Notes: generated by a model not told the origin, from the letters alone. 27,378 bases of DNA from a virus (IMGVR_UViG_3300046002_007054:1-27378), one strand, 5' to 3'. Counted from the stretch's first letter, positions 4,171-27,378 are shown. Translations and numbers: made by a program.

Positions 4171-4179
4171 AAAAAGAAA

Positions 4180-4207
4180 GGATGAAGGGTGAAGGATGAA
4201 GGGTGAA
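4180..4207. repeat. GGATGAA/GGGTGAA heptamer repeat, 4 copies
   Basis: Four tandem heptamers alternate GGATGAA and GGGTGAA between the ATPase start codon (4170) and the stop codon of the zinc-ribbon gene (4210). On the coding strand they form a pyrimidine-rich TTCATCC/TTCACCC leader. Confidence 0.9.
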
Positions 4208-4749: not shown

Positions 4750-4764
4750 AGTTAGAAGGAAGAG

Positions 4765-4839
4765 GGATGAAGGATGAAGGATGAAGGATGAAGAATGAAA
4801 CGGGGAACTGAGAACTGAGAACTGGGAACTGGGAACTGA
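4765..4839. repeat. Two adjacent heptamer arrays (GGATGAA x5, GAACTGR x5)
   Basis: Positions 4765-4799 hold four GGATGAA units and one GAATGAA. Positions 4805-4839 hold five GAACTGA/GAACTGG units. Only a five-base linker separates the arrays. Together they occupy nearly the whole gap between the zinc-ribbon gene start (4749) and the ligase stop codon (4840). This is the clearest case here of two heptamer families side by side. Confidence 0.95.
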
Positions 4840-6507: not shown

Positions 6508-6511
6508 TAAA

Positions 6512-6539
6512 GGATGAGGGGTGAAGGACGAAGGATGAA
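6512..6539. repeat. GGATGAA-type heptamer repeat, 4 copies
   Basis: Four variant heptamers (GGATGAG, GGGTGAA, GGACGAA, GGATGAA) fill the gap between the DUF2997 start codon and the DUF1257 stop codon at 6542. Confidence 0.85.
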
Positions 6540-6541
6540 GG

Positions 6542-6997
6542 TTAGGCGGCGCAGGTGACTTGGATGGCCCCGTTGGGTAGGGTTTTGCGGATGGGTGTGT
6601 AGCCTTTCTGGCGGAGCATCTGCATGGCGGTCTGGGCGCCATAGGCGTCCTGGAGTTTGACGAGGGCATCGCCAAAGCGGGCCTTGAGTTTCAGGCCGTC
6701 GTGTGCCGGGTTTTTGCCGCTGCCAAAGAAGTCCCAAGCAAGCGTGTAGTTGCCGGTGGTGGTGCGGCTGGCGACGACGCCAACCTCGTAATGCACGCCA
6801 GGGAGGCGGATGACATGGTCGCACTTGCCGAGATCGGAGAGCAACATGCCTTCCGGCAGGGGTTCATCTCCGACCTTCCTTCCATACCAGTTGTAGGTCG
6901 GGATGTTGCGGACGAGTTGGGCACCGAGTTCAGCGCAGGCGGCTTCGAGGGTGGTGAGGTCTTTGATCTGGAGCTTGATGGTGGTGATGTGGGACAT
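6542..6997 (-). CDS. DUF1257 (Ycf35-like) protein
   Basis: 151 aa, beginning MSHITTIKLQIKDLTTLEAA. This is the characteristic opening of DUF1257/Ycf35 proteins (MSHFTTIKTQI, a loop, then LxxAxxxLG). Conserved-looking features are VRNIPTYNWYGRKVGD and a beta-rich middle (VIRLPGVHYEVGVVASR). The family is known from algal plastids, cyanobacteria and many mobile elements, without an established function. It recurs with DUF2997 (next gene, 34 bp downstream) and Ycf46-type AAA+ proteins (2638-4170 here), which suggests a joint complex. The protein ends TCAA. Confidence 0.85.
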   Translation of the reverse strand: MSHITTIKLQIKDLTTLEAACAELGAQLVRNIPTYNWYGRKVGDEPLPEGMLLSDLGKCDHVIRLPGVHYEVGVVASRTTTGNYTLAWDFFGSGKNPAHDGLKLKARFGDALVKLQDAYGAQTAMQMLRQKGYTPIRKTLPNGAIQVTCAA

Positions 6998-9117: not shown

Positions 9118-9858
9118 TTACCAGTCCATGAGGAGACCGGTGCAGAAGCCGAACTCGCCTTGGTCAAGGTTGTGGGCGATCACGGCCTTGACCGAGGCTG
9201 CGGGGTTGGCGGTGGCGTGGATGAGGTAGCCAGCCTGCTCGACGCTATCGAAGCCTGCGGTCGGGTCGAAGGGGCCGAGTTTGGCCGCCAGGGCGCTGAC
9301 AGCGTGCTGTATGAGGTCGTCATTCTCACGGCCCAAGGATTGCTGGTCACGCAGTCGGACGAGGCAGTCGATCAGGGCCTTGTCCATGGCATCGAGCGTC
9401 GGGGACTCGGCGGCAGGGGTGATGGCGAAGATGCCGCATTCGTTTTCGGGGGTGACGACTTTATCCACCTCAGCCACATAGAGCGCGGTCCGTTGCAGGG
9501 CAGGAATCTCTGCCATCTGACGCACGGGGAATCGGTCGGGCTCGGGCGGCACAGGGTCGGGTGGGCAGGGCATACCGGGCGGGATGGCCTCGCGCTGGGA
9601 GAAGGTCGCGGTGGCTTCCTCGAAGTTGGGGCTGTCGAACAGGGACAGGTCGCCGTAGTAGTAGCCGTCGTAGTAGATGAGGCCTTCGACCTCGGTAAGG
9701 TAACCCTCGGAGTCGTCGGGGAAGAACAGGCGGGGGGCAGAGCCGTAGGTTGTGCTGATGCTGGCGAGTGGGCCGAAGGTGGGACCTTCGCGGCCCCAGT
9801 CATCGAGTTGGTCGTCGGGGTGAGATCTGCCGTGGAAGAGGTGTAGGTAGAGGGGCAT
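9118..9858 (-). CDS. Conserved phage hypothetical (DDWGxxGPxFGP protein)
   Basis: 246 aa from MPLYLHLFHGR at 9858; the upstream in-frame sequence is translated repeat and was excluded. The N-terminal 75 residues resemble a family I recall from phages and plasmids: LxLFHGRxxPDxxLDDWG, then GPTFGPLASISTTY, then LIYYDGYYYGDLSLF. No function is established to my knowledge. The rest is unrecognised. It includes a proline-rich turn region (PPGMPCPPDPVPPEPDRFP) and a helical C-terminal half (MDKALIDCLVRLRDQQSL). No transmembrane segment is visible. It lies between two small genes in the leftward arm. Confidence 0.75.
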   Translation of the reverse strand: MPLYLHLFHGRSHPDDQLDDWGREGPTFGPLASISTTYGSAPRLFFPDDSEGYLTEVEGLIYYDGYYYGDLSLFDSPNFEEATATFSQREAIPPGMPCPPDPVPPEPDRFPVRQMAEIPALQRTALYVAEVDKVVTPENECGIFAITPAAESPTLDAMDKALIDCLVRLRDQQSLGRENDDLIQHAVSALAAKLGPFDPTAGFDSVEQAGYLIHATANPAASVKAVIAHNLDQGEFGFCTGLLMDW

Positions 9859-9864
9859 GGGAAA

Positions 9865-9892
9865 GGGTGAAGGATGAAGGATGAAGGATGAA
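9865..9892. repeat. GGATGAA heptamer repeat, 4 copies
   Basis: GGGTGAA followed by three GGATGAA units, directly upstream of the leftward start at 9858. Confidence 0.9.
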
Positions 9893-9902
9893 GCTTGATG
9901 GG

Positions 9903-10118
9903 TTACCAGCAGAGGTGGAGGAAGCCTTGGGCCAGCTTCCAGAGGCCGGCTTTGCCAGCGGAGCGCGGGCGGAGTTCGCGGGGTTTCAGGCTGCCGTCCT
10001 GACGGCGGCGGGCGCTGCGCAGGATGTTGGCGGCGTGAGCACGGACGGCGGGTTCTTCGCCGATGCTTTCGGGCATGGCGACGGCGTTGCGGGTGGCGGG
10101 GGTATAGGTGAGTTTCAT
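9903..10118 (-). CDS. Small basic hypothetical protein
   Basis: 71 aa starting MKLTYTPATRNAVAMPESIG. The middle is Ala- and Arg-rich and helical (VRAHAANILRSARRRQDGSL), and the end is GLWKLAQGFLHLCW. The basic helix could contact nucleic acid, but no family is recognised. It lies 44 bp from the next gene and downstream of an intrinsic terminator for leftward transcripts (10157-10188), so it probably needs its own promoter or read-through. GATGAAGG-type repeat remnants (10119-10137) precede the start. Confidence 0.55.
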   Translation of the reverse strand: MKLTYTPATRNAVAMPESIGEEPAVRAHAANILRSARRRQDGSLKPRELRPRSAGKAGLWKLAQGFLHLCW

Positions 10119-13492: not shown

Positions 13493-15217
13493 ATGGGAAA
13501 GCCGTCAAAAAAACTCAATCTACTGGATCAACTTATCACCTATGTGGCGCCGCAGGTGGCTCTGGAGCGGGGTCGGGCGCGGGATGCCATCACTCAGTTT
13601 GGTTATGATGGCGTCAATGGCGACGGACGGCGCGGACTGACGGGCGGCTCGGCGGGGCGCAATGGGTCGCCAGAGAATCCACGGCTGAGTCTGGATGTGG
13701 TGAAGCTGATGTGGGAGAGCCGGGATCTGGAGCGCAACTCGGCGCTGTGGAGCGGGATTCTGAGTCGCGTGGTGCGTTATGCGCTGGGCACGGTGAAGTG
13801 GCAGAGTCGCACTGGAGACAGTGAGGTCGATGCCGAGTATGAAGCCTACTTTGAGCAGTGGCAGAAAGACTGCGACTACAAAGGCCAGCACGGCTTTGCC
13901 AAGCTGCTGCAGCTTTACCTGCGATCGATGCTACGAGATGGCGATGTCGGCGTGCATTTTGTTGATGAAGAGGGCGAACTCAAACTGCAAGGGATCGAGG
14001 CCGACCGCATTGGTGATCCGAATCAGGCAGGCAACCAGAGCAACCAGGAAGTGCGGGGTGTGGTGCTCGATGAGAAGGGGCGGGCTAAAGGCTACAAGAT
14101 TTACAAGCGCAATCGCAACAACCAGTATGATCTGGATCAGGAGGTGCCAGCGGGCAACTTTGTGCTGCTGATGGATGCGCTGCGCATTGACCAGACACGC
14201 GGCGTCTGCTGGGCGGGCGGGGCGCTGACCGTGCCGAGGGATTTGAAGGAGCTGGATCAAGCCGAGATGGATGCCGCCAAGTTTGCCGGCAGTTTTGCGG
14301 GCTTCCTGAAATCGGACTCACCGTATGGCGCCAAGGGTGGTGCGGCCTGGGATGGCGTGAGTGCCGAGGGGGTGAACAAGATGGACATGAAGAGTGGTAT
14401 CATCCGCCGTCTGCCAGCGGGGGATGACATCATTTTCCAGCAACCGCCGTCGCGACCATCGGGGGCGTTCACCGCCTACTACGAAACCAAGATCCGTGAG
14501 CTGGCCATTCAGCTCGACATGCCGTTCGGGTTTGTCTGGAATCTGGCGATGCTGGGTGGCGTCACGGCACGCATCGAAGTCAATCAGGTCATGCGCACGT
14601 TGAAATATTTCCGCGAGCTGATGCGGTCGAAGTTGCTGGAAGAGATCGTTGGTCGCGTGCTGCGTCGCGGGGTGGCCGAGCGGGCGATCCGTCCACACGC
14701 CAAGCGCGGGTCGGGCAAGTGGACGTTTGGTGCCGAGATCACCGGAGATGTCGGCCATGACACGAGTGCGGACATCCAACTACTGAACGTCGGGGCGCTG
14801 GCGCTGAGTGATTTGGTCGAAGGCAAGCTGGGTGGGGACTTTGAGGAACTCTGCGACACGCAGGCGCGGGAGATGAACATCCGTCAGGCCACAGCCGCCA
14901 AGACCGGCGTGCCGATTGAGTTGCAGAGTGAGCGATTCCCACAGGCTACGCAACTGATGGCGGCGATGCAGACGCGCGGGGAGCCGGACGCCGAGCAGCC
15001 GGTGCTGGATGAGAACGCACCGGAGCAGATGCCTGGAGCCGAGCAGGGGCCGGTGCCCGCAGGGCTGGCAGCGGTGCATGGCAAGGACGCGGTGAAGGGC
15101 TTGCTGGACATCATGAAAAAACTCAACGCAGGGGAGTTGACTCGCGAGCAGGCAGTGACGGTGCTCGTGGCTAGCTATGGCATGGATTTGGCGGAAGCGG
15201 AGATGGTGGTGCCGTGA
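13493..15217 (+). CDS. Portal protein, lambda gpB type
   Basis: 574 aa, the usual size for lambda-type portals. Recognisable family features in order: WESRDLERNSALWSGILSRV (N-terminal wing), YLRSMLRDGDVGVHFVDEEG, LKLQGIEADRI, the stem region VPAGNFVLLMDALRIDQTRG, DLKELDQAEMDAAKFAGSFA, a crown and tunnel region with LAIQLDMPFGFVWNL and VNQVMRTLKYFRELM. The protein makes the 12-subunit ring at one capsid vertex through which DNA is packaged and ejected. The C-terminal 90 residues are acidic and end in a helical unit (LLDIMKKLNAGELTREQAVT). Downstream, a GAT-rich heptamer array separates it from the next gene. Confidence 0.92.
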   Translation: MGKPSKKLNLLDQLITYVAPQVALERGRARDAITQFGYDGVNGDGRRGLTGGSAGRNGSPENPRLSLDVVKLMWESRDLERNSALWSGILSRVVRYALGTVKWQSRTGDSEVDAEYEAYFEQWQKDCDYKGQHGFAKLLQLYLRSMLRDGDVGVHFVDEEGELKLQGIEADRIGDPNQAGNQSNQEVRGVVLDEKGRAKGYKIYKRNRNNQYDLDQEVPAGNFVLLMDALRIDQTRGVCWAGGALTVPRDLKELDQAEMDAAKFAGSFAGFLKSDSPYGAKGGAAWDGVSAEGVNKMDMKSGIIRRLPAGDDIIFQQPPSRPSGAFTAYYETKIRELAIQLDMPFGFVWNLAMLGGVTARIEVNQVMRTLKYFRELMRSKLLEEIVGRVLRRGVAERAIRPHAKRGSGKWTFGAEITGDVGHDTSADIQLLNVGALALSDLVEGKLGGDFEELCDTQAREMNIRQATAAKTGVPIELQSERFPQATQLMAAMQTRGEPDAEQPVLDENAPEQMPGAEQGPVPAGLAAVHGKDAVKGLLDIMKKLNAGELTREQAVTVLVASYGMDLAEAEMVVP

Positions 15218-15224
15218 GGGGCAA

Positions 15225-15273
15225 GGATGAAGGATGAAGGTAGAGGACCAAGAACTGAAAACTGAAAACTGAA
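15225..15273. repeat. GGATGAA x2 and AACTGAA x3 heptamers
   Basis: Two GGATGAA units (15225-15238) and, after a short link, three AACTGAA units (15253-15273), just before the ATG at 15279. GGATGAA is on the sense strand here, the opposite orientation from the left arm. Confidence 0.85.
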
Positions 15274-15661: not shown

Positions 15662-15907
15662 ATGAAACAAACCCCTGATCAAATCCGCATCTACTTCACT
15701 GATCTCATCGTTGAGCAGCTCGGCGTGGATGAAGCCGCCGTCACCCCTCATGCTAAACTCGAAGCACTAGGGGCGGACTCCCTTGATGTAGTGGAACTTT
15801 GCATGGCCGTTGAACTGGAATACGGCATCGACATCGCTGACGACGAAGCTGAAAAACTCCTCACCGTCCAGGATTGGTTGACCCACATCGAGTCTGCGAG
15901 CGAGTAA
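15662..15907 (+). CDS. Acyl carrier protein
   Basis: 81 aa, the typical length of AcpP. The phosphopantetheine site is intact: [10 protein letters not shown] with Ser40, followed by the acidic helix II/III sequence ([20 protein letters not shown]) that holds acyl chains and contacts partner enzymes. It should carry acyl groups as thioesters on the 4'-phosphopantetheine arm added by the host holo-ACP synthase. No other fatty-acid or polyketide gene is present in the window. Upstream are the SSB-tail gene and a GAAC-type repeat (15628-15655). It is not a degenerate copy. Codon choice looks less G-rich than the genes around it, which hints at separate acquisition. Confidence 0.92.
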
Positions 15908-16257: not shown

Positions 16258-19200
16258 ATGGCTGACAACTCCAAAATTTCAGGCGGCGATCGTGCCCGCA
16301 ATGCGCTCATCACCGGCACCGCCGGGGCTTATCTCGGTAGCATGGTGCTCGATGGCAAAGTGAAAATCCCACTGGCGCTGGCGCGGCTGCTACGCACACG
16401 CAAGCGCACCGTGAACGTGCATGGCGCACGGGCGGGTGGCGTGGCGGGCGCGGTGCTGGGGGCGACGAATAAAGGCAAGCGCAGTGAGACCGTGGACAGT
16501 GTTGGCAGCGGCGGCGACTGGAAGTTTTCGAGGGGTGATTTCCTTCGGCGTGCCAGCGCAGATGCGGGCTTTTTGCGGGTGGAGATTCCACGACGCAATC
16601 TCAACGGCACGTCAAAGAAAGCCGCTCAATGGCTAAAACTCAACAAGCGGGAACGTATTCCTGGGCAGACACGCCAGGCAAGCTCGTATGGATTTAGCGC
16701 GTTCATCGAAGACATGACGTTCAAGTCCCTGCCGAAAGACGTGCAGGGTGAGGTGACGCGCTTTGTCGATGCGAAAGCGGGCACACCGCTGGTGCATTAC
16801 GGCATGACCGTCACGGAACTGATCGGCAAGGCGGATGCTGAGAATTTGAAGTCGGCACGCAAGGCCTTGGGCACGCTGCGGGCGAGTCGCGCGTGGGAGG
16901 AAGTGAACGGCAAGATCAAGGCCGGCAGCAAATACATCCTGCTCATGAACGACCGCATTGTCGATGGCCATCACTTTTTGGCGAAAGCCGAGCGCGGCGC
17001 GATCACCAGTTCGTTGAACGTGTTGGATCTGACCCCGGCAAGGTTGAGCACAGGGAAGACCACGGAGTTCGCCGACAAGCCCTTCGTGGGTTATAATGCC
17101 AAGCGTCATGCGCGCACGGGAGGATTGAACGATGCATTCCGCAAGAGCTACAACCGCGAGCACGGCAGCAATCTCAAAGGTCCGGTGACGACGGCACCGA
17201 GCAAGCTCAAGGCAGGCAGCAAAGAGGCGGGCCGTCGCGCCAGCTTCTGTGCCCGCATGGGCGGGATGCAGGGAGCCACCAGCAAGGGTGGTCAACTCAC
17301 GCCGAAGGGCGCGGCTTTGAAGCGCTGGAACTGCGAGTCGGGGCAGCGTCTCACGGAGTTTGCTGAGGATAAGCACGCGGCGGAAAAAACGGGAGCCAAG
17401 ATTGGCGCGGCGACTTTAGGTGCCTCCATGACGGGGGGCGGACTGGCGGCGGTCGTGCATAGCACGCCTAAAGCTGGGAAACTGTGGAACACGTTGAAAG
17501 GCCGAGGGGTCACCAGGAATGAACGGCGGGTCGCGGCGTCCAAGCTCATGAAGTTTGTGGGCAAGCAGGTCAAAAAGGACGCGAAACTGCTGGGGGGTGT
17601 GGCCGCGCTGGGTGGGCTCTCTGGTGCCTTGATTGGGGCTGGCGCGGTGAAGGTTCACAAAAAGCTAGTATCGCGACTGGCACCCGCGAAAGAAAAAACC
17701 GAGTTTGCGGAGAGCAATCGGACGCGGGATCTGCGGGACAAGCTGGGGCTGGCGAAGGATGTCGGCACGCTGGGGTTGATCGGTGGCGCGGGCTACGGTG
17801 GCCACCGTCTCTACAAGCAGGGGCAGAAGGCGGTGGCCGATCTGACACCGGCTGTGCGGCGGACGCTGGCGCGGGCGAATGTCGGGCTGCGTCAGGCGGG
17901 TAAGATTGGCAAGAGCTGGCGCAAAGCAGCGATCACTACCAAGGAAACTCTGGGCACGGTGAATGATGCCGTGCAGCCAGCGGCGACGATGAATCGCGGC
18001 ATTGCCAAAGCAGGTCGCAAGATTGCGGTGGGAGCCAAGAAGATCGGCCAGATTAAACTGTGGGCGGATGGGCGGAAGCTGACGCGGTTTGAGGTCGCAC
18101 CGAAGCGTGACAAGCTGAGCCAGGCGCGAGACATCGCCGTGCTGGGCGGTGCGGCAGCGGCGGCGGGTGCGGCAGGGTATGTCGTGCATCAGGGTCGCAA
18201 GGTCGTGAAGGCTGTGGCACCGACCGTGCGGGAAGCGAAAGCAGTGTCGGGCAACGTCCGCAACGCCACACGCATCGGGGCGGATGTGGGGCGCATCTAT
18301 GGGGATCTGACGCAACCGCTGCGTGATCCGAAACGCTACGCGGCCAAGGTTAAGGGAGGGTTTCGTCGCGGAGCCAAGGCAGCGGCAGCGGCACCCACAG
18401 CAGGCTGGGCGAAGAAGGTCGTGCACATCGGCAAGAAGCTGCGCGTGCTGGAGGTCGGGCCAGCGGGCCAGATGAAGCTGACGCAGTTCAACGTCATCGG
18501 GGCCGCGATCGGCACGGTGGCGGGGGCGATGCTGGGCGGCAAGGTGCGGGCACCGATTTACCGTGCGCTGTTGCGGCGCAATCCTGAGAAGCCGTTGGGC
18601 AAGTGGGCCAAGCGTCGGGCGCGGGCCGGAGCTTATGCGATCGAGAATGGCGCACCGGCGATCGGTGGCGCGGTCGGTGGCATGATCGGGCGCAAGGCGA
18701 AACCTGAGACGCAGTTCGGTGGCAGTGAGCAGCAGGCGGATTTGCATGGCGGTCGTTATGTGGATGCCTGGGACACGTTTACCGGCAAGGCCAAGGGTTA
18801 TCGCAAACGTGACGTGAACGACTACAACCGGATGCGCAAGATGTTGAAGGATCATAGCACGGGGTCGCGCAAGTTTGAGCCGGACACCGTGAAGCGGATT
18901 CAGGAAGGGATGAAAAGCATTGAAGACAATCCGCTGGAAGCCACCACGGGGCAGGTCGGGCGCAGCATCATGCGCAAGGCCAACACCGTGCGCATGGTCG
19001 CAGAGCGCGGCGGTGGTCTGGCGCGGGATGTGGTCAAGCACGTCAAGGGCGAGAAGCGTGAGAAGGATGCCTGGGGTCGCGAGAAAAAGCGCGAGTGGGA
19101 GAAGCCATGGTTCCAGCGCAAGCGCAACCAGCTCATCGCGGGTGGGGCGATCTTGGCGACAGGGCTGGCGTATCGCAAATTCCCCAAGATTCAGCGCGGG

Positions 19201-19872
19201 GTGGAGTCGCTCAAAGCCAAAGGCAAAGACGCCGTGAACAAGGTCATGCCAGACGCCTTCCCTGATAAGGGCACGGCGGCCCATGCGGCAGCGCAGACGG
19301 GCAAGAAGCAGAGCACAGCAGCGGAGATTGCGGCAGACATCAAGGCCCAAGCCGAGTCACTGAAACAGCGGGCGGCCGCTGCCAAAGCAGCCGCAACGAA
19401 ACCGCTGGAAGTGGTCAAGCCACGGGTGCGCAAACCGAAGGCACAGCCAGGAGCAGGCACAGGCACGCTGGGGCTTTCGGCGTGGCCGCAGCGGGTGACA
19501 TCGTTCAATGATCCGCTGGATCACGGCTGGGATCTGCGGGATGCGCGGGGTCGCTCGGCGCGGGTGTTTGCACCGGGCAGCCAGGGGCGTGAGCGCAGGC
19601 CGAAGGAGTGGTATGAGAAGATCGACAACGAGCGCAAGCTGTGGGCGGGTGCGGCGCTGGCCGGCAGCGGGCTAACGGCGGCGGTCATGAAGAAACTCGG
19701 CGGCAAGAAGCTGGCGAGTGTCACGAACTCGGCTGTGCAAGCGGAGCGGGCGAAGGTCCGCACCGCGTTGCAGAAGGTGAACAAGATGCGGGCGGCGAAA
19801 GCGGCGGTGAAGCCTAAAGCCAGCAATGGTGGCGGGCCGACGATTCAACTGCATCCGAGGACGGCGGCGTGA
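16258..19872 (+). CDS. Giant basic modular protein, probable internal head polyprotein
   Basis: 1204 aa, extremely rich in Lys, Arg, Ala and Gly, with no enzyme motif. Eight T-x-F peptides mark it at intervals: VTRF 166, TTEF 268, LTEF 365, KTEF 480, LTRF 608, LTQF 741, ETQF 817, VTSF 1080. Several are followed within 10-50 residues by a short Gly/Ala hydrophobic helix and then basic residues, for example GGVAALGGLSGALIGAG 446-462, VGTLGLIGGAGYGG 502-515, IAVLGGAAAAAGAAG 626-640, VIGAAIGTVAGAMLGG 746-761, IAGGAILATGLAY 960-972 and LWAGAALAGSGLTAAV 1128-1143. It lies between portal and protease genes. Internal, protease-processed, membrane-active ejection protein is my inference. Ends TAA (Thr-Ala-Ala). 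Confidence 0.85.
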   Translation: MADNSKISGGDRARNALITGTAGAYLGSMVLDGKVKIPLALARLLRTRKRTVNVHGARAGGVAGAVLGATNKGKRSETVDSVGSGGDWKFSRGDFLRRASADAGFLRVEIPRRNLNGTSKKAAQWLKLNKRERIPGQTRQASSYGFSAFIEDMTFKSLPKDVQGEVTRFVDAKAGTPLVHYGMTVTELIGKADAENLKSARKALGTLRASRAWEEVNGKIKAGSKYILLMNDRIVDGHHFLAKAERGAITSSLNVLDLTPARLSTGKTTEFADKPFVGYNAKRHARTGGLNDAFRKSYNREHGSNLKGPVTTAPSKLKAGSKEAGRRASFCARMGGMQGATSKGGQLTPKGAALKRWNCESGQRLTEFAEDKHAAEKTGAKIGAATLGASMTGGGLAAVVHSTPKAGKLWNTLKGRGVTRNERRVAASKLMKFVGKQVKKDAKLLGGVAALGGLSGALIGAGAVKVHKKLVSRLAPAKEKTEFAESNRTRDLRDKLGLAKDVGTLGLIGGAGYGGHRLYKQGQKAVADLTPAVRRTLARANVGLRQAGKIGKSWRKAAITTKETLGTVNDAVQPAATMNRGIAKAGRKIAVGAKKIGQIKLWADGRKLTRFEVAPKRDKLSQARDIAVLGGAAAAAGAAGYVVHQGRKVVKAVAPTVREAKAVSGNVRNATRIGADVGRIYGDLTQPLRDPKRYAAKVKGGFRRGAKAAAAAPTAGWAKKVVHIGKKLRVLEVGPAGQMKLTQFNVIGAAIGTVAGAMLGGKVRAPIYRALLRRNPEKPLGKWAKRRARAGAYAIENGAPAIGGAVGGMIGRKAKPETQFGGSEQQADLHGGRYVDAWDTFTGKAKGYRKRDVNDYNRMRKMLKDHSTGSRKFEPDTVKRIQEGMKSIEDNPLEATTGQVGRSIMRKANTVRMVAERGGGLARDVVKHVKGEKREKDAWGREKKREWEKPWFQRKRNQLIAGGAILATGLAYRKFPKIQRGVESLKAKGKDAVNKVMPDAFPDKGTAAHAAAQTGKKQSTAAEIAADIKAQAESLKQRAAAAKAAATKPLEVVKPRVRKPKAQPGAGTGTLGLSAWPQRVTSFNDPLDHGWDLRDARGRSARVFAPGSQGRERRPKEWYEKIDNERKLWAGAALAGSGLTAAVMKKLGGKKLASVTNSAVQAERAKVRTALQKVNKMRAAKAAVKPKASNGGGPTIQLHPRTAA

Positions 19873-19876
19873 GGGA

Positions 19877-19897
19877 ATGACGAATGACGAATGACGA
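19877..19897. repeat. ATGACGA heptamer repeat, 3 copies
   Basis: Three perfect units immediately after the giant gene; they would be read as an N-terminal extension of the next ORF if its true start were ignored. Confidence 0.9.
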
Positions 19898-19940
19898 GCC
19901 GATTGACAACTTGAACCAAACTGACGGACACACTTTTTCT

Positions 19941-20708
19941 ATGAACACACAGCAGCTGATCCAACTTTCCTCCCAGCTCAATGGGGCACTCAATCAATTT
20001 TCACTGGCGGCGAATGCCAGTGGTGAATATCCGTGGCAGGCGCAGCAGCGTGAGAAGCGCAACAGCCGTCTCAAAAAAGTGGCAGGCGCGGGACTGGTGG
20101 GGGCGGCTGGTCTTTACGGGCATCAGAGCATCATGAACCGTGCCAGTGAGGCTGGTCCGGTGCGGGCGCGTGACGCCTACAAAGCCGTGGGCAATCAGGC
20201 GCTGAATAAGGTGGCGGGCGTCGAGCGTGCGGACAAGTTCAGGGCAGTGGCAGGTCCGATGGTGGACAAAGTCAAGGCCGCAGCGGCACCGGCAGCGGCG
20301 CGTGTCGGGGCGTATGGACAGAATTTGAAGTCGGCCACGCAAGCGGGCATGGCGGGATCGGCGGGCATGGGCTGGAAGAAACCGAAGCTGGGAATTGGCA
20401 AGGCCGCGATGGCCGCTCTCAAAGGCGTGCGTTTCTCCAGTGCTGAACGTCTGGTCGAACTCGAAGCGCAGTTGGATGGGGCGCTGGTGGAGTTGGGCTA
20501 TCAGAAGACAGACCGTGTCATGAAGTCAATCTCGCGCAAAATGCTCAAGTCCGCACGGGCTGGCAACATGTCTGAGGCAGACGTCTTGATGAAAAAAAAC
20601 AACGCACTTGTGCCGAAGCGTAAAAGCAAGGCGGATAGTGCGATGATGCGTTGGAGCAAATCAAATAAGGCAGGGCCAGCACGCGGCATCCAGCCAACGG
20701 ACTGGTAA
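19941..20708 (+). CDS. Basic head-associated protein with LNGALNQF N-terminus
   Basis: 255 aa from MNTQQLIQLSSQLNGALNQF; the upstream in-frame codons are repeat-derived. The N-terminal 20 residues form an amphipathic helix ending in NQF. Then come a basic linker, a short Gly/Ala helix (VAGAGLVGAAGLYG 47-60), an Ala/Lys-rich region, a second LDGALVEL peptide at 178-185 and a basic tail with Pro-Thr-Asp-Trp at the end. The design matches the giant protein and the next gene, which suggests a common origin and common fate: packaging into the prohead. No enzymatic motif. The gene ends just before four TTCATCC repeats. Confidence 0.8.
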   Translation: MNTQQLIQLSSQLNGALNQFSLAANASGEYPWQAQQREKRNSRLKKVAGAGLVGAAGLYGHQSIMNRASEAGPVRARDAYKAVGNQALNKVAGVERADKFRAVAGPMVDKVKAAAAPAAARVGAYGQNLKSATQAGMAGSAGMGWKKPKLGIGKAAMAALKGVRFSSAERLVELEAQLDGALVELGYQKTDRVMKSISRKMLKSARAGNMSEADVLMKKNNALVPKRKSKADSAMMRWSKSNKAGPARGIQPTDW

Positions 20709-20710
20709 CC

Positions 20711-20738
20711 TTCATCCTTCATCCTTCATCCTTCATCC
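20711..20738. repeat. TTCATCC heptamer repeat, 4 copies
   Basis: Four perfect TTCATCC units, eight bases before the ATG at 20747. This has the same sense orientation, relative to the gene, as the GGATGAA arrays of the leftward arm. Confidence 0.92.
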
Positions 20739-20746
20739 TTCCTGAC

Positions 20747-21772
20747 ATGACTTCCCTCACTCAACTCTCCCGGCTGCTGACGCAGTTCGACAAGCTCGAT
20801 CTGGGCTTCACCTATGACGATAGCTACGGCTGTATGCCATCATCGCTCGGCGACTCAAAGACGCCGAAGGTGCAGTATCCGAATCTGTATGTGAATCGGG
20901 TGAAGGATGATGTGATGGGGGTGCCGGAGACAGGCACGGCGCTGGTCGAATACAAGATCACCGGCCGCAACATGAGCAATCGGGACGGCAAAACCAAGTA
21001 TGGCATGGATGTGGAGATCCGCAGTTTCGATCCGCAGGCCGGGGCGAAAGCCAAAGCCAAGGAAAGCAAGCCAGGCGCGGCGAAAGCCGTGATGCTGGAG
21101 CGGTTGGATGGGGCGCTGACGGAGTTGGCGCGTGGGGATCAGGCATTGAAGCTGGTTCACGGTGGGAAGCCGCCTGCCGATTTGCTGAAACATTATCGGA
21201 TTCCGCAACGGCAACAATCAACATGGAAGGGAAATACCCCAGGGAGCCATCCAATTCCGAGTTCACGCCATGTGGCGAACACGATCCGCGACATTCGTTC
21301 CACGAAAAAGGCGGAGAAGGAATGGCACAAATCTTCACCCTCTAAAACACCTCATATCGGTTGGGGCTTGGAGCGGTTGAAGGGTAAGGAGCGTGCGCAG
21401 TTGGATAAGCAACTCAAGGGAACCGGGTTCTCCGAGTTCTCCGACCGTTCGCGTGACAATGACGGGCAGTTTGTTGGGGCGGCGACGGGTGGGGCAGATC
21501 CGGTGACGATGCGGCAGGCTTACGGGAAGAAGGCGCTGGTGGCAGGTGCGGGTGCGGCGGCACTGGCTGGAGCGGGGATGCTGGTTGGCACGCGCGGTGG
21601 GCGCAAACTGGTGAGCCAAGGGCTCAAGGCAGCGGGCGGTGGTCTGCACAAGCTGCGGGGGGCGGTGGTGTCGAAGAACAGTGGCGGGCGTGGCCAGGGA
21701 TTCATGAAATCTCCGTCGGAGAAGCCGGGGGCAGGAGCTTACATGCAGCGGCGGCGGATGCAGGGGGAGTAG
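20747..21772 (+). CDS. Head-associated protein with LTQF N-terminus
   Basis: 341 aa. The N-terminal helix (LTQLSRLLTQFDKLDLG) parallels the one in the 255-aa gene. Residues 40-95 form a beta-rich domain (VQYPNLYVNRVKDDV, LVEYKITGRNM) that I do not recognise. LDGALTEL lies at 120-127. A Lys/Arg-rich middle follows, then GFSEFSD (227-233) and a Gly/Ala hydrophobic helix (LVAGAGAAALAGAGMLVG 264-281). The tail is basic. By composition and place, immediately before the protease/scaffold gene, it belongs with the two preceding proteins. An internal or core protein is inferred. Confidence 0.8.
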   Translation: MTSLTQLSRLLTQFDKLDLGFTYDDSYGCMPSSLGDSKTPKVQYPNLYVNRVKDDVMGVPETGTALVEYKITGRNMSNRDGKTKYGMDVEIRSFDPQAGAKAKAKESKPGAAKAVMLERLDGALTELARGDQALKLVHGGKPPADLLKHYRIPQRQQSTWKGNTPGSHPIPSSRHVANTIRDIRSTKKAEKEWHKSSPSKTPHIGWGLERLKGKERAQLDKQLKGTGFSEFSDRSRDNDGQFVGAATGGADPVTMRQAYGKKALVAGAGAAALAGAGMLVGTRGGRKLVSQGLKAAGGGLHKLRGAVVSKNSGGRGQGFMKSPSEKPGAGAYMQRRRMQGE

Positions 21773-21930: not shown

Positions 21931-23277
21931 ATGAGCAAACCCCTTTATACTTTCTCGACGTTCGGTGCCGATGGTGCCGTTGATTCCGACAATGCCGTCA
22001 TCACCGGCGTGAGCATGATCACTGGCAGCCTGACCGCCAAAGGTCATGGGCTGGAGGTGGATGCGAAGACGCTGAAACAGATTTTTCTCTGCGCCAAGAA
22101 GATGGGCCAGGTGCCGGTGAAGACGAATCACGGCAGCGGCGTCGATGCCGTGAATGGATTCCTGACCAACTTCCGCATGGATGGCGACAAGGTGCGGGGT
22201 GACTGGCACTTGCTGCGGACCTATGCCACCACCGAACATTTGCTGGAGATGGCCGAGCGGATGCCATCGAGCATTGGCCTGAGTGTGGCGTTTCGCGGCG
22301 AGCCCGAAACGGCGGATGGCGAGACCATTTTTCAGGATGAGAAGACCAAGGAATACTACACGCTGGCAGCAGGCGGTCGCAAGGTGCCGTTGAAGGCGGG
22401 AGCCACGCGCCATGCCCGCTGCACCGAGCTGGTGAGCACCGATCTGGTGGCGAGTCCAGCGGCGAATCCAGGCGGCATGTTTGCCGAAGGTAATGCCTTG
22501 GGTGTTGACAGCGCCGAGAAGGGCATGGCTAAAACCCTCGAACAATCCCAACAGACAGCCGCCGAACCAACGATGGCGGACCTCATGAAAGCAATTTCCG
22601 GCATCAACGAGCGTATCGACGCGATGGAAGCTGGCGGTGAAGAAGAAGAAGGCGCTGAATCCGAACTTTCTGATGCTGAGATTCAGCAACTGATCGACAA
22701 CGGCACGCTGGTCGAAGACGGCGAGGGCGGTCTGGTGCTGGCCGAAGAGGCGGGCGAAGGCGAAGGTGAAGGCGAAGGCGAAGGCGAAGGCGAAGGCGAA
22801 GGCGAAGCTGCTGAAGCTGCCGAAGCTGAGCTGAGCCGCCGCGATCCGATCACCTACTTTGAGAATCGCATCAACATGCTTGAATCCAAGCTGGCCGGTG
22901 AGAAGCAGGCCAAGAAACGCGCTGCCGAACAAACGATGTTCAGCCAGATCGAAGCCAAGCAGGCTGAGTTGATCACGCGCTTTGAAGCCGTGGCCGCTGA
23001 GAATGAGGCGCTGCGTGAGTTGGTATCTGAGTATCAGGCTGGCGCGCCAGTGGCACTGTCCAGCCGTGGAGAGCAGATCATGTTCGATGAATCGGGCAGC
23101 GAAGTCGAAGGCACCGCTTTTGAGAAGCGTGTGGCGACCAAGTTCACCGAGATCCGCAAGAGCCAACCGACGCTTTCGGAGTTCTCAGCCAAGGCTGAGG
23201 CCATGAAGTTTGCCATCGGCACCTACCCTGGTGACTACACCGCGCACCAGAAGGGCAAGGGCGTCACGAACCTGTAA
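21931..23277 (+). CDS. Prohead protease fused to scaffold domain
   Basis: 448 aa. Residues 1-190 are an HK97/lambda-type prohead protease: catalytic-His candidate His67 in VKTNHGSG, catalytic-Ser candidates in MPSSIGLSVAF (111-121), and the family signature LVSTDLVASPAANPGG (167-182). Residues 230-300 are acidic with a Gly-Glu hexanucleotide repeat. Residues 310-365 form a scaffold coiled coil (FENRINMLESKLAGEKQAKK). The C-terminus carries ITRFEAV (348-354) and TLSEFSAK (414-421), the same type of peptide as in the internal proteins. It should assemble the prohead shell, cut itself and other head proteins, and then leave. Confidence 0.88.
   Translation: MSKPLYTFSTFGADGAVDSDNAVITGVSMITGSLTAKGHGLEVDAKTLKQIFLCAKKMGQVPVKTNHGSGVDAVNGFLTNFRMDGDKVRGDWHLLRTYATTEHLLEMAERMPSSIGLSVAFRGEPETADGETIFQDEKTKEYYTLAAGGRKVPLKAGATRHARCTELVSTDLVASPAANPGGMFAEGNALGVDSAEKGMAKTLEQSQQTAAEPTMADLMKAISGINERIDAMEAGGEEEEGAESELSDAEIQQLIDNGTLVEDGEGGLVLAEEAGEGEGEGEGEGEGEGEGEAAEAAEAELSRRDPITYFENRINMLESKLAGEKQAKKRAAEQTMFSQIEAKQAELITRFEAVAAENEALRELVSEYQAGAPVALSSRGEQIMFDESGSEVEGTAFEKRVATKFTEIRKSQPTLSEFSAKAEAMKFAIGTYPGDYTAHQKGKGVTNL
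22753..22806. repeat. GGCGAA hexanucleotide repeat, 9 units
   Basis: Nine tandem GGCGAA units (one GGTGAA), in frame within the protease/scaffold gene, giving a Gly-Glu run. It is a short microsatellite that can change length without shifting the frame. Confidence 0.93.
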
Positions 23278-24081: not shown

Positions 24082-25053
24082 ATGGCATACGCAAACACAG
24101 CAGCCGTCTCCCGTTCTGACATCCGCGTCCTGCTTGAACAGGCCCGCGAAGCAGACAAAGGCCTGATCGGCGACAAGGTCCTGGGGGTTTACTCCAGCGA
24201 CGAACCCACTGGGCGCTACCCGCGCTACAACATCGGCAACGGCGGCCTTCTGGACGCTGACACCGACACCAAACGCGCTCCAGGCTCCGGCTACAAGCGC
24301 ATCAATCGCAGCTACGAATGGGACACCTTCGATTGCGAAGACCGTGGCCTTGAAGAAGCCGTCGATGAAACCGACGCCCGCAAGGTCAAGAAGTTCTTCG
24401 ACATGGAAGTTTCCGCCGCTCAAAAGCTCCGCCGCAACACCGCGCTGGCCTATGAGCAGCGCGTGGCGACGAAGGTGATGATCGCCGCCAACAGCGGGTT
24501 CCAAGCCGCCAACAGCGTCGTGGCCTACACGGAAGCCAATCTGGCGACCATTGACCTGGCTCGCGACATCCAGGAAGCCAAGCAATACCTGACCGCCCGT
24601 GGCGTGAATCAGGAAGACATGAGCCTGATCATGAGCAACGTGGTGTTTGACCGCCTGCGCCGCTCGGCCAAGCTGCTGTCCTATGTGTTCGGCAACCATG
24701 CCAACGTCGGCAACAAGCGTCTCACGCTGGGTGAACTGGCGGAAGCCCTTGAGGTCAAGGAACTGCTCATCGGCACCCGCAGTCGCAACACGGCTAAGAA
24801 GGGCGCAACGCTCTCCCTTGGCGCGATTTGGGGCACCAGCACCATCGTGCTGGCCAACCTGAAAAGCGGCGAGTTCAGCGAAGGCGGCATTGGCCGCACG
24901 GTCGTTTGGACCGAAGATGCCAGCGGGTTGTATGTCGCGGAGTCCTACCGCGATGAAACGAACCGCAGCGACATCATGCGCGTGCGCCAGAACAGCACTG
25001 AGAAGATCACCGATGTGAACGAGGGTTACTGCATCACGACGCAGTGGGCTTAA
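24082..25053 (+). CDS. Major capsid protein, lambda gpE type
   Basis: 323 aa, close to the size of lambda-type capsid proteins. The sequence VLGVYSSDEPTGRYPRYNIG near residue 33, then YEWDTFDCEDRGLEEAVDET and the helical spine with VSAAQKLRRNTALAYEQRVA are typical of this family in many bacteria. Later, GNKRLTLGELAEALEVKELL and SDIMRVRQNSTEKITD are recognisable. It makes the HK97-fold shell. No T-x-F peptide of the internal-protein type is present, so it may be excluded from the proposed processing. A strong terminator follows 24 bp after the stop. Confidence 0.93.
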   Translation: MAYANTAAVSRSDIRVLLEQAREADKGLIGDKVLGVYSSDEPTGRYPRYNIGNGGLLDADTDTKRAPGSGYKRINRSYEWDTFDCEDRGLEEAVDETDARKVKKFFDMEVSAAQKLRRNTALAYEQRVATKVMIAANSGFQAANSVVAYTEANLATIDLARDIQEAKQYLTARGVNQEDMSLIMSNVVFDRLRRSAKLLSYVFGNHANVGNKRLTLGELAEALEVKELLIGTRSRNTAKKGATLSLGAIWGTSTIVLANLKSGEFSEGGIGRTVVWTEDASGLYVAESYRDETNRSDIMRVRQNSTEKITDVNEGYCITTQWA

Positions 25054-25133: not shown

Positions 25134-26966
25134 ATGCGTTGTTTTATTAACTTAATGGATGGGACAGTGAGTGCAGAGCTGCCAGCCAGGGCGGGTGGTT
25201 ACCAGCAGCAAGTCAAAGCGCTGACTGGAGAGCGTGTCGAGATTCGCTGGATTGAAGTGGGGGAAGCGTATGGGATGCCCGCTGGCACGGAGATTAAACT
25301 GGTGGTGCGTGATGCCAAGGGTGGCACGCTGCTAGCAGAGATGACGGAGTTGAGTGTGCCGGCAAGTGTGGCTCAAGGATTCTACACGGGCAGACTGAGT
25401 TTTAACACCGTGGCCGTGGTGGACCTACTGGCCGAGCACCCGCTCAAACAGAGTCTGGCGGTCTTTGGAGAGATTTTGTGGAAGATCCCTGGAGCGACCG
25501 ATTGGGAGGCGAGTGACGACTTGCAACTGACGTTGCTACGAAAAGTGAGCACAGGAGACAGTGAAGGTAACCCGACCGAGAACGCCGAACCCGCCACCAG
25601 CCTGCCGGAGTGTGATGCACGATTTGTGCGCTACGACGGCCCACAGACACTGACCACGGAGCAGCAAGAGCAGGCGGTGGAAAATCTTGGGCTTGATGGT
25701 GCTGGCGTAGGTGGAGGCACACAAGGCCCACAAGGCCCAGCAGGCAACGATGGCTCGCAGGGCCCAAAGGGCGATCAAGGACCGCAAGGGCCGCAGGGTG
25801 AATATGGAGGCCCACAAGGCCCACAAGGCCCACAAGGCCCCGGCGGCCCAGTTGGCAACGATGGCGCGCAAGGTCCGCAAGGTCCCGGCGGCCCAGCAGG
25901 CAACGATGGCCCGCAAGGTCCGCAAGGCGCACAGGGAAACGATGGCCCGCAAGGCCCGCAGGGTGAATATGGAGGCCCGCAAGGCCCGCAAGGCCCACAA
26001 GGCCCCGGCGGCCCATCTGGCAATGATGGCGCGCAAGGTCCGCAAGGCCCCGGCGGCCCAGCAGGCAACGATGGCGCGCAAGGTCCGCAAGGCCCACAAG
26101 GCCCACAGGGCGATCAAGGTCCGCAAGGCCCGCAGGGTGAATATGGAGGTCCGCAAGGCCCAGCAGGCAACGATGGCGCGCAAGGCCCAGCAGGCAACGA
26201 TGGCGCGCAAGGTCCGCAAGGCCCAGCAGGTAACGATGGAGTCGGCGGCAGTATCCCTATTGACTTTGACAACGGCTCATTCCTCGCCGCTGGAGATCCG
26301 AGCTATGGCAGCATGGGCTCTGGAGGCGGCATCGAGCAGGTCTGTTCCCTTGATTACCGGCAACGCTGGGAAGGCGGGAGGCAGTGGTATTACGACCAAA
26401 GTGCGGGCGGCGTTCGCGAGGTGCGGATGAACTTTAGTGCCCCAACGATTTACGATGACGCCAAAGATTCGCTACGATTCCGCGTCGGATCACGATGGGT
26501 GCATGAGGATGGCCGGGAATGGGTGTGCAGCGATGCGACCGAAGAAGCTGCGGTTTGGGATCTGCGTGTTGATGAGCGCTACTACCGCGCAGGCGGCTCA
26601 TTTGTCGGGATGCCCGTTGAGTTTTCCGTTGCGCTAGGTGACGAAACATCTGCGGCAACGACTGGCACTAAAGTCACTTGGCGTGTGCCGTATGCGATGA
26701 CGGTGACGAGTGTGCGCATTGAGTGTGTCGCGGCGCCTACGGGATCTGTTGCGATCATCGACGTGCAGGAGGCAGGCACGACTATCTTCAGCGTGAGTCC
26801 GCAGATTGCCATCTCAGAGACCACCTCAGTCGGTGGGGCTGTCCCTGGCACGCTCTCAGATAATACACTGGAGGACAATGCTGTGTTGACTTTTATCATC
26901 GACCAGATCGGCAGCACCGAAGCGGGCGCAGGCTACAAAGTCACACTCATTGGCACCCGCGCATGA
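25134..26966 (+). CDS. Collagen-like fibre protein
   Basis: 610 aa. Residues 1-150 are a beta-rich N-terminal domain ([20 protein letters not shown]), probably the virion-binding part. Residues 165-190 carry [20 protein letters not shown] and then NLGL, a phage-fibre attachment motif (LTxxQxxQAxxNLG). Residues about 195-372 are a collagen-like stretch of Gly-Pro-Gln, Gly-Asn-Asp and Gly-Ala-Gln triplets with repeated QGEYGG breaks. Residues 375-610 form a C-terminal globular domain rich in aromatic residues, probably the receptor-binding head. A trimeric triple helix is expected. It is the first gene after the capsid terminator. The ATG of the next gene overlaps its stop (ATGA). Confidence 0.88.
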
Positions 26967-27378
26967 ATCTCCTGAATCCATATCGGTTTGCTGCCGCGCC
27001 GCCACCATTGGGCACCGTCCTTGGGTATACTTGCGACGGCACCGATAAATACAACACCGTGGCGGATGGATCGGGTGGCTCAGCTCCGGTTTTTGTGGAG
27101 TCCAACTCTCTTGATTGCGGCTACACACCGCCACCGCCGCCACCAGAAGCAGGCACCGTCCTTGGGTTCACTTGCGTCGGCATGGACAAATACAACACCG
27201 TTGCGGATGGATCGGGTGGCTCAGCTCCGGTTTTTGTGGAGTCCAACTCTCTTGACTGCGGCTACATACCGCCACCAGCAGCAGGCACCGTCCTTGGTTT
27301 CACTTGCGTCGGCACCGACAAATACAACACCGTTGCGGATGGCTCGGGTGGCTCAGCTCCGGTCTTTGTGGAGTCCAA
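26963..27378 (+). CDS. Cys-repeat fibre protein, partial
   Basis: Runs off the right edge; 138 codons seen from [20 protein letters not shown]. Three tandem copies of a 44-47 aa unit begin with GTVLG at 27011, 27152 and 27284. Each unit reads [20 protein letters not shown], then [18 protein letters not shown], then a proline linker (PPPPPP or PPP). Each unit has two cysteines that could form a disulfide or bind a metal. Similar C/ADGxGG/CGY repeats are, as I recall, found in phage fibres and baseplate proteins. The start overlaps the collagen-like gene's stop (ATGA), so it is co-translated. The copies differ at a few positions, so they are old duplications. Confidence 0.8.

Follow-up and report, generated by a model that had tools for sequence, protein, structure and literature searches.

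A putative polyvalent internal-head polyprotein with exchangeable cassettes and portable Phe-ending peptides in a phage family that probably infects Verrucomicrobiota

Why does a phage with lambda-type head genes carry, between its portal and its prohead protease, a block of several genes that includes one for a basic protein of 1204 aa, and what are the short, phenylalanine-ending peptides that recur along this protein? The window examined here is IMG/VR record IMGVR_UViG_3300046002_007054:1-27378 in full (27,378 nt), and its features are collected in Table 1; the giant protein is identical in two further records (L002 and L003). An earlier note on this DNA proposed that the giant and two smaller basic proteins (255 and 341 aa) form an internal-head system in which T-x-F peptides act in targeting or cleavage. 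All three proteins are present as described, and the comparisons reported here partly support that reading and sharpen it. In our judgment the locus probably encodes a polyvalent internal-head polyprotein, with junction peptides that are portable targeting and prohead-protease sites.

Table 1. Features of the window and of its cassette proteins (slashes within peptides mark cassette boundaries)
Feature	Coordinates	Strand	Remarks
Lambda-family portal	13493..15217	+	PF05136, E 9e-47; leader-like ITQF at 13589-13600
Giant basic cassette protein, 1204 aa	16258..19872	+	ORF and relatives; pI 10.9
Junction WKF/S, residue 90	16525..16530	+	Left edge of 56-aa insert missing in L004/L006; alignment, homology break
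Junction YGF/S, residue 146	16693..16698	+	Right edge of 56-aa insert
VDGHHFLAKAE cassette	16696..17046	+	Also in unlike backbones of L076/L077
Junction KTTEF (267-271)	17056..17070	+	T and F invariant, 4 relatives
DUF6321 cassette	17110..17328	+	PF19846, E 3e-13; other cassettes there in L004/L006
Junction LTEF (365-368)	17350..17361	+	Right edge of DUF6321 cassette
Junction KTEF (480-483)	17695..17706	+	Right edge of swapped region; LTAF, LHQF, LHLF in relatives
Junction LTRF (608-611)	18079..18090	+	F invariant, T not
Junction LTQF (741-744)	18478..18489	+	Exact insertion site in L006
Junction ETQF (817-820)	18706..18717	+	LRKF, IHEF in relatives
Junction VTSF (1080-1083)	19495..19506	+	T and F invariant, 4 relatives
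C-terminal core GWDxRDxRGRSARVFAPGS..RRxKxWxEK	19519..19650	+	Conserved family-wide; query for 67 loci
255-aa basic protein	19941..20708	+	Leader LIQLSSQLNGALNQF (ends 20000), internal RLVELEAQLDGALVEL (ends 20495)
341-aa protein	20747..21772	+	Leader MTSLTQLSRLLTQF (ends 20788), RLDGALTEL (ends 21127), GFSEF (ends 21439)
Prohead protease and acidic scaffold	21931..23277	+	Invariant His67 (22129-22131), Ser118 (22282-22284)
Major capsid protein	24082..25053	+	phrog_1005, E 3e-30; without peptide
7-bp repeats	4178-4202, 4756-4794, 6510-6548, 9856-9908, 15223-15247, 20706-20754 and others		
Junction peptide, putative protease site			VGPAGQMKLTQFNVIGAAIG

The head genes follow the lambda-type order of portal, protease/scaffold, decoration protein and major capsid protein (MCP), which is the order of L149 save for the inserted block. 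In five of five lambda-portal phages used for comparison, a protease or protease-capsid gene lies directly behind the portal. The giant stands among virion structural genes, with the portal upstream and the protease, decoration and MCP genes downstream. In loci with more distant relatives of the protease, the genes likewise run portal, giant, small proteins, protease, decoration, MCP. Its charge (about +140) is opposed to that of the acidic protease/scaffold (-33) and of the portal (-10). A long helical chain, rich in Ala and Gly, within a structural operon could also be read as a structural or external protein, for instance a tape measure, a scaffold or a head fibre, instead of cargo. We find this hardly credible, given that the gene lies between portal and protease, away from the tail genes and with its own scaffold adjoining, and that the architecture is mosaic and includes enzyme cassettes (see below).

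Several other elements of the window should be mentioned. An acyl carrier protein gene (15662-15907; PF00550, E 3e-12; phrog_5934, E 9e-17) lies inside the head block, downstream of the portal and upstream of the giant. Tandem 7-bp repeats of the types GAAGGAT, GAACTGA and GAATGAC recur between genes across the window, and look like the heptanucleotide repeats that occur in cyanobacteria. The probable fibre protein (25134-26966) has collagen-like GPQGPQ repeats, and an adjacent ORF (26963-27376) with long tandem repeats runs off the contig.

Relatives were collected with three queries, the giant itself (8 loci), the protease (55) and the C-terminal core of the giant (67), and 52 distinct giants of 286-1956 aa, with near-duplicates removed, were compared; one is from a Verrucomicrobiales MAG, and the others belong to uncultured phages. 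Searches with the protease and MCP found no cultured relatives among 50,697 phage records. In a genome collection, the C-terminal core matched that one MAG and the protease found no match. A protease profile matched five of 388 genomes of the MAG's phylum, two of them strongly, and two of the weaker ones are without a giant. Because of the MAG relative and the second strong match in another genome of the phylum, the host of the phage family is probably a member of the Verrucomicrobiota.

The eight T-x-F peptides counted previously in the giant are there, with Thr at residues 167, 269, 366, 481, 609, 742, 818 and 1081 (numbered from 1; the earlier positions were counted from 0 and are one lower). 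Shuffling of the sequence gives 1.48 (p 1.5e-4), so the excess is 5-fold; for [LIVKTM]T.F it is 13-fold (seven against 0.53 expected), and for [LIVKTM]T.F[AEDNGS] six are found against 0.23, with as many in none of 20,000 shuffles in either case. The protease/scaffold has seven T-x-F against 1.14 expected (p 5e-5), including the ITRF that had been pointed out, and TLSEFS besides; NQF, LTQF and GFSEF were likewise found in the small proteins. Replication genes and fibre are at chance level. Capsid and decoration proteins have none, as claimed, but the portal, which had been placed with them, carries ITQF. A per-genome EM motif search recovered the peptide above shuffles in L026, L076 and L100, and in the window and L134 returned composition or other motifs and no T-x-F motif; no conclusion drawn here depends on it.

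Comparison with homologues changes the definition of the peptide. What is conserved is the Phe that ends an amphipathic L-x-x-hydrophobic-x-x-F peptide, not the Thr; around it there is an excess of hydrophobic residues at -3 and -6, of E and N/Q at -1, and of acidic residues at +1 and +2. The expectation that T-x-F would be better conserved than the surrounding linkers holds for Phe and is partly contradicted for Thr, which is often replaced. In the closest relatives, Phe is invariant at five of the seven T-x-F junctions in the window, even where the flanks are 27-50% identical to L124, and Thr is not kept throughout; the two exceptions, at 366 and 481, flank a swapped region in which the aligned columns are not homologous. 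Seven of the eight peptides are plausible module borders. The eighth, at T167, was rejected as a junction, because the module around it is conserved as one unit. A single but telling case is L135, in which Leu replaces Phe throughout, at the junctions, in the small-protein leaders (RLRELG, RLRELS) and in the portal (LHLLGYDG). Given a motif this degenerate (Thr not conserved; Leu or Met possible for Phe), no strict cleavage consensus is established.

As judged from the alignments, cassettes are swapped, inserted or moved with their edges at these Phe-ending peptides. The backbones of the window giant, L004, L006 and L124 align with one another, and the stretches between junction peptides are unrelated. 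An insertion in L006 starts exactly behind MKLTQF and closes with its own VHFSEF, after which the backbone continues with GVIGAA; the insertion in the window is bounded by WKFS and YGFS/AFIEDM. The DUF6321 domain is found at residues 285-357 of the window giant with KTTEF on its left and RLTEF on its right, near the C-terminus of L007 with ALTQF on either side, and in a different gene of L026, flanked there by LSAR-type repeats of that phage. Similarly, the VDGHHF cassette of the window recurs in L076 (58/117 identical) in an unlike backbone, directly after VKE/F. L004 and L006 have a different middle cassette in the 341-aa protein, with the right edge kept between the window and L006 (GFSEF/SDRSRD and VIKF/SDRTRD).

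The same tendency can be measured across all 52 giants. For 147 of 221 homology starts, the 13 residues upstream include a Phe, against 65.8 +/- 6.8 for random positions, and the same holds for 87 of the 108 starts that recur in at least three comparisons, against 32.1 +/- 4.8; these breakpoints are not independent because the genomes are related. Right edges give a weaker signal (142 of 288 homology ends, against 105 +/- 8). Agreement of peptide flavour within a genome is weak (p about 0.013, with overlapping pairs removed). In the giants of L076, L077, L080 and L111, translated REP-like stretches (NHRGHRGHRGG, NHGGHGEHGG) occur just ahead of a number of swapped cassettes, and recombination may take place there.

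One and the same peptide, by sequence comparison, serves as cassette junction and as leader of N-terminal cassettes or of whole genes. The small proteins downstream of the giants begin with leaders such as LIQLSSQLNGALNQF, LTQLSRLLTQF and LSARVESQLHQF (for the 255-aa protein, the start at 19941 was chosen to match homologues; the ORF-finder start gives 274 aa). A solo gene of 95 aa in L087 starts MNPKIEARLALIEF/STGKRF and is identical at 69/85 positions to an internal cassette of L089 that starts NFSALKEF/TMKKRF. The N-terminus of the L109 giant (WLKEF/ARMIPEGY) corresponds to a cassette that is internal in L020, behind PLKEF/AGLLPKGY. Short N-terminal peptides of this kind are present on several unrelated proteins (the 255-aa and 341-aa proteins, the L087 solo gene, and the L109 and L121 giants). 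As a control, the solo DUF6321 gene of a pelagiphage consists of the domain alone, without a leader.

Could the peptides be recombination scars or hinge linkers, with cassettes recombining at short similar DNA and no role in assembly? A 29-nt direct repeat in the window (20468-20496 and 21100-21128, 90% identical) encodes LDGALVEL and LDGALTEL in two different genes, which together with the REP-like stretches flanking some cassettes is what such a process might leave behind. On the other hand, the peptide leads whole genes and sits in the portal, places that offer no cassette for exchange, and Phe is retained where the surrounding sequence diverges. We therefore regard this explanation as quite improbable.

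The portal peptide, ITQFGYDG, has its ITQF at residues 33-36 and is conserved in the family as L-x-x-F, which more than 30 family portals carry about 30-35 residues into the protein. Five lambda-type portals from other phages lack it and have R, G or other residues instead. KLTAF is also found in portals of a sister clade (L027, L036, L039) in which no giant is in view, so the portal site may predate the cassettes. As for the protease/scaffold, an AF2 model (pLDDT 80) predicts the fold of T4 gp21 and herpesvirus assemblins: Foldseek placed T4 gp21 (5jbl) first, with E 1.2e-4 and probability 1.00 at a TM of only 0.42-0.52, followed by herpesvirus assemblins as weak matches (E about 0.1). His67 and Ser118 are invariant in an alignment of 20 protease sequences, and would be the catalytic residues. 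All 20 also have an invariant F8 in a junction-like context (ADLKEFF, NQLIEFEV, GMKEFSS), which may be a site of autocleavage or else part of a structural strand.

The peptides might instead be scaffold-docking helices and nothing more, in which case the giant would be packaged whole, through many docking points, and remain uncut. The amphipathic i/i+3 pattern and the residue degeneracy would suit a binding helix, a very basic chain faces an acidic scaffold, and large internal proteins that stay uncut are known, such as N4 vRNAP (PMC5512222). Nevertheless, the peptide is present in the portal N-terminus and in the protease/scaffold too, and the adjacent protease, by its predicted type, belongs with the enzyme that does this kind of trimming in T4. 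Docking without cleavage is accordingly unlikely, in our opinion, but less so than scars or hinges.

At the level of the family, the giants are mosaics of several different domains. Polyvalent-type InPase cassettes (PF18823; E 1e-43 to 4e-51) occur in L020, L109 and L128, and their PHROG matches fall within DarB-like antirestriction proteins and virion proteins; L026 has an HNH_3 cassette, and many giants have DUF6321, the sole Pfam domain of the window giant. Pfam finds no built-in zincin peptidase, a frequent though not universal part of polyvalent proteins, in the window giant, and L022 has weak zincin-like matches. Weak HMM matches or motifs recognized by eye provide ART/KptA-like leads (L004, L089) and LRAT-like leads (L116, L124, L141). 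The VDGHHFLAKAE cassette has no match in the PDB, its AF2 model (pLDDT 54) is too weak for a fold assignment, and it looks ParB-like by eye only. By tblastn, DUF6321 is found in 388 phage records, mostly of cyanophages, and in T7-like pelagiphages it is a solo gene between the scaffold and capsid genes (L010, 7995-8240; L011, 7989-8234); a literature search found no paper on it. The earlier proposal of membrane-active or DNA-binding peptides fits the glycine-zipper-like basic modules, but is too narrow, as relatives hold enzyme-like cassettes.

Under the polyprotein reading that we prefer, a cargo-loading block has been inserted into a lambda-type head module, with the portal on one side and the protease/scaffold on the other, and the giant, 255-aa and 341-aa proteins would be internal-head, polyvalent-type proteins built from small basic cassettes. 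The peptide L-x-x-hydrophobic-x-[E/Q/R]-F (T-x-F in the clade of the window) would be a portable tag between cassettes, a leader where a cassette starts a gene and a junction where cassettes follow one another in frame. As the prohead assembles, the tags may bind the acidic scaffold or the protease and so draw the cargo in, after which the gp21-like prohead protease would make its cuts at Phe or beside it. Notional cuts at the Phe sites of the window giant give pieces of 56-263 aa with pI 9.3-11.7; cleavage of the 1204-aa chain would yield about 8-10 basic proteins with masses of 6-29 kDa. The portal N-terminus may be trimmed in the same event, and the released basic proteins would enter the cell together with the DNA. 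It is also possible, although here we lean slightly toward doubt, that any tag-flanked cassette is taken into the head and set free inside it, making this an exchangeable polyprotein cargo served by a protease with specificity for Phe (Leu in some lineages). We found no description of Phe or Leu specificity among prohead proteases, nor of such a junction peptide in the open-access literature searched.

If this is correct, injected phage effectors could be read by splitting a chain at its tags, and cargo would become readable in at least 52 distinct proteins in which only scattered domains are recognized. The one-leader idea of T4 capsid targeting would be extended to a true polyprotein, and an adjacent assemblin-like protease, rather than a built-in zincin, would be a likely processing route for polyvalent proteins. 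DUF6321, widespread as a solo gene of cyanophages and pelagiphages, would be suggested to be an injected protein.

T4 gp21 cuts after [LI]-x-E, whereas the present sites are L-x-[EQRKS]-F, cut presumably by a protease whose modeled fold is gp21-like. T4 internal proteins are directed to the core by a 10-residue leader, which gp21 removes; gp21 has an LIE site of its own close to the N-terminus (PMC9026906), and F8 of the present proteases recalls that site. The capsid targeting sequence of T4 IPI-III and Alt is likewise a short N-terminal tag, for packaging and then removed, on small internal proteins that are ejected, and it is served by the same predicted protease fold (PMC9026906). However, T4 has one leader per protein, and the present tag is also repeated within the chain and ends in Phe; Pfam and PHROG gave no matches to IPI-III or Alt. 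The head proteins of SPN3US and phiKZ that are cut by gp245 resemble the proposed system in that packaged and ejected proteins are each cut several times and the portal is processed, but there the multiple cuts remove propeptides, and here they would part cargo cassettes (PMC10052503). The Dar proteins of P1, which are large antirestriction proteins packaged in the virion, have an N-terminal targeting region, and the DarB-like PHROG has an InPase domain too; by contrast, no repeated junction peptide is described for DarB, a single protein of 250 kDa (PMC9024508).

Also close to the present system are the polyvalent proteins, which are mosaic and multidomain, are encoded beside virion genes, and are predicted to be packaged and injected (Iyer, Burroughs, Aravind 2017; PMC5512222). 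That article reports prophage examples in Verrucomicrobia and some proteins with an assemblin-like peptidase fused at the C-terminus, and in the sections consulted it proposes processing by built-in zincins, not through a junction peptide. The present family shares with those proteins the mosaic multidomain architecture, the virion-gene neighbourhood and the polyvalent-type InPase. It differs in that a short peptide, common to solo cargo leaders and the portal, separates its cassettes, and in that its assemblin-like protease is a separate, adjacent gene. Taken together, the locus fits a hybrid, with cargo of the polyvalent type, a T4-like tag reused between cassettes, and a gp21-like protease encoded next door.
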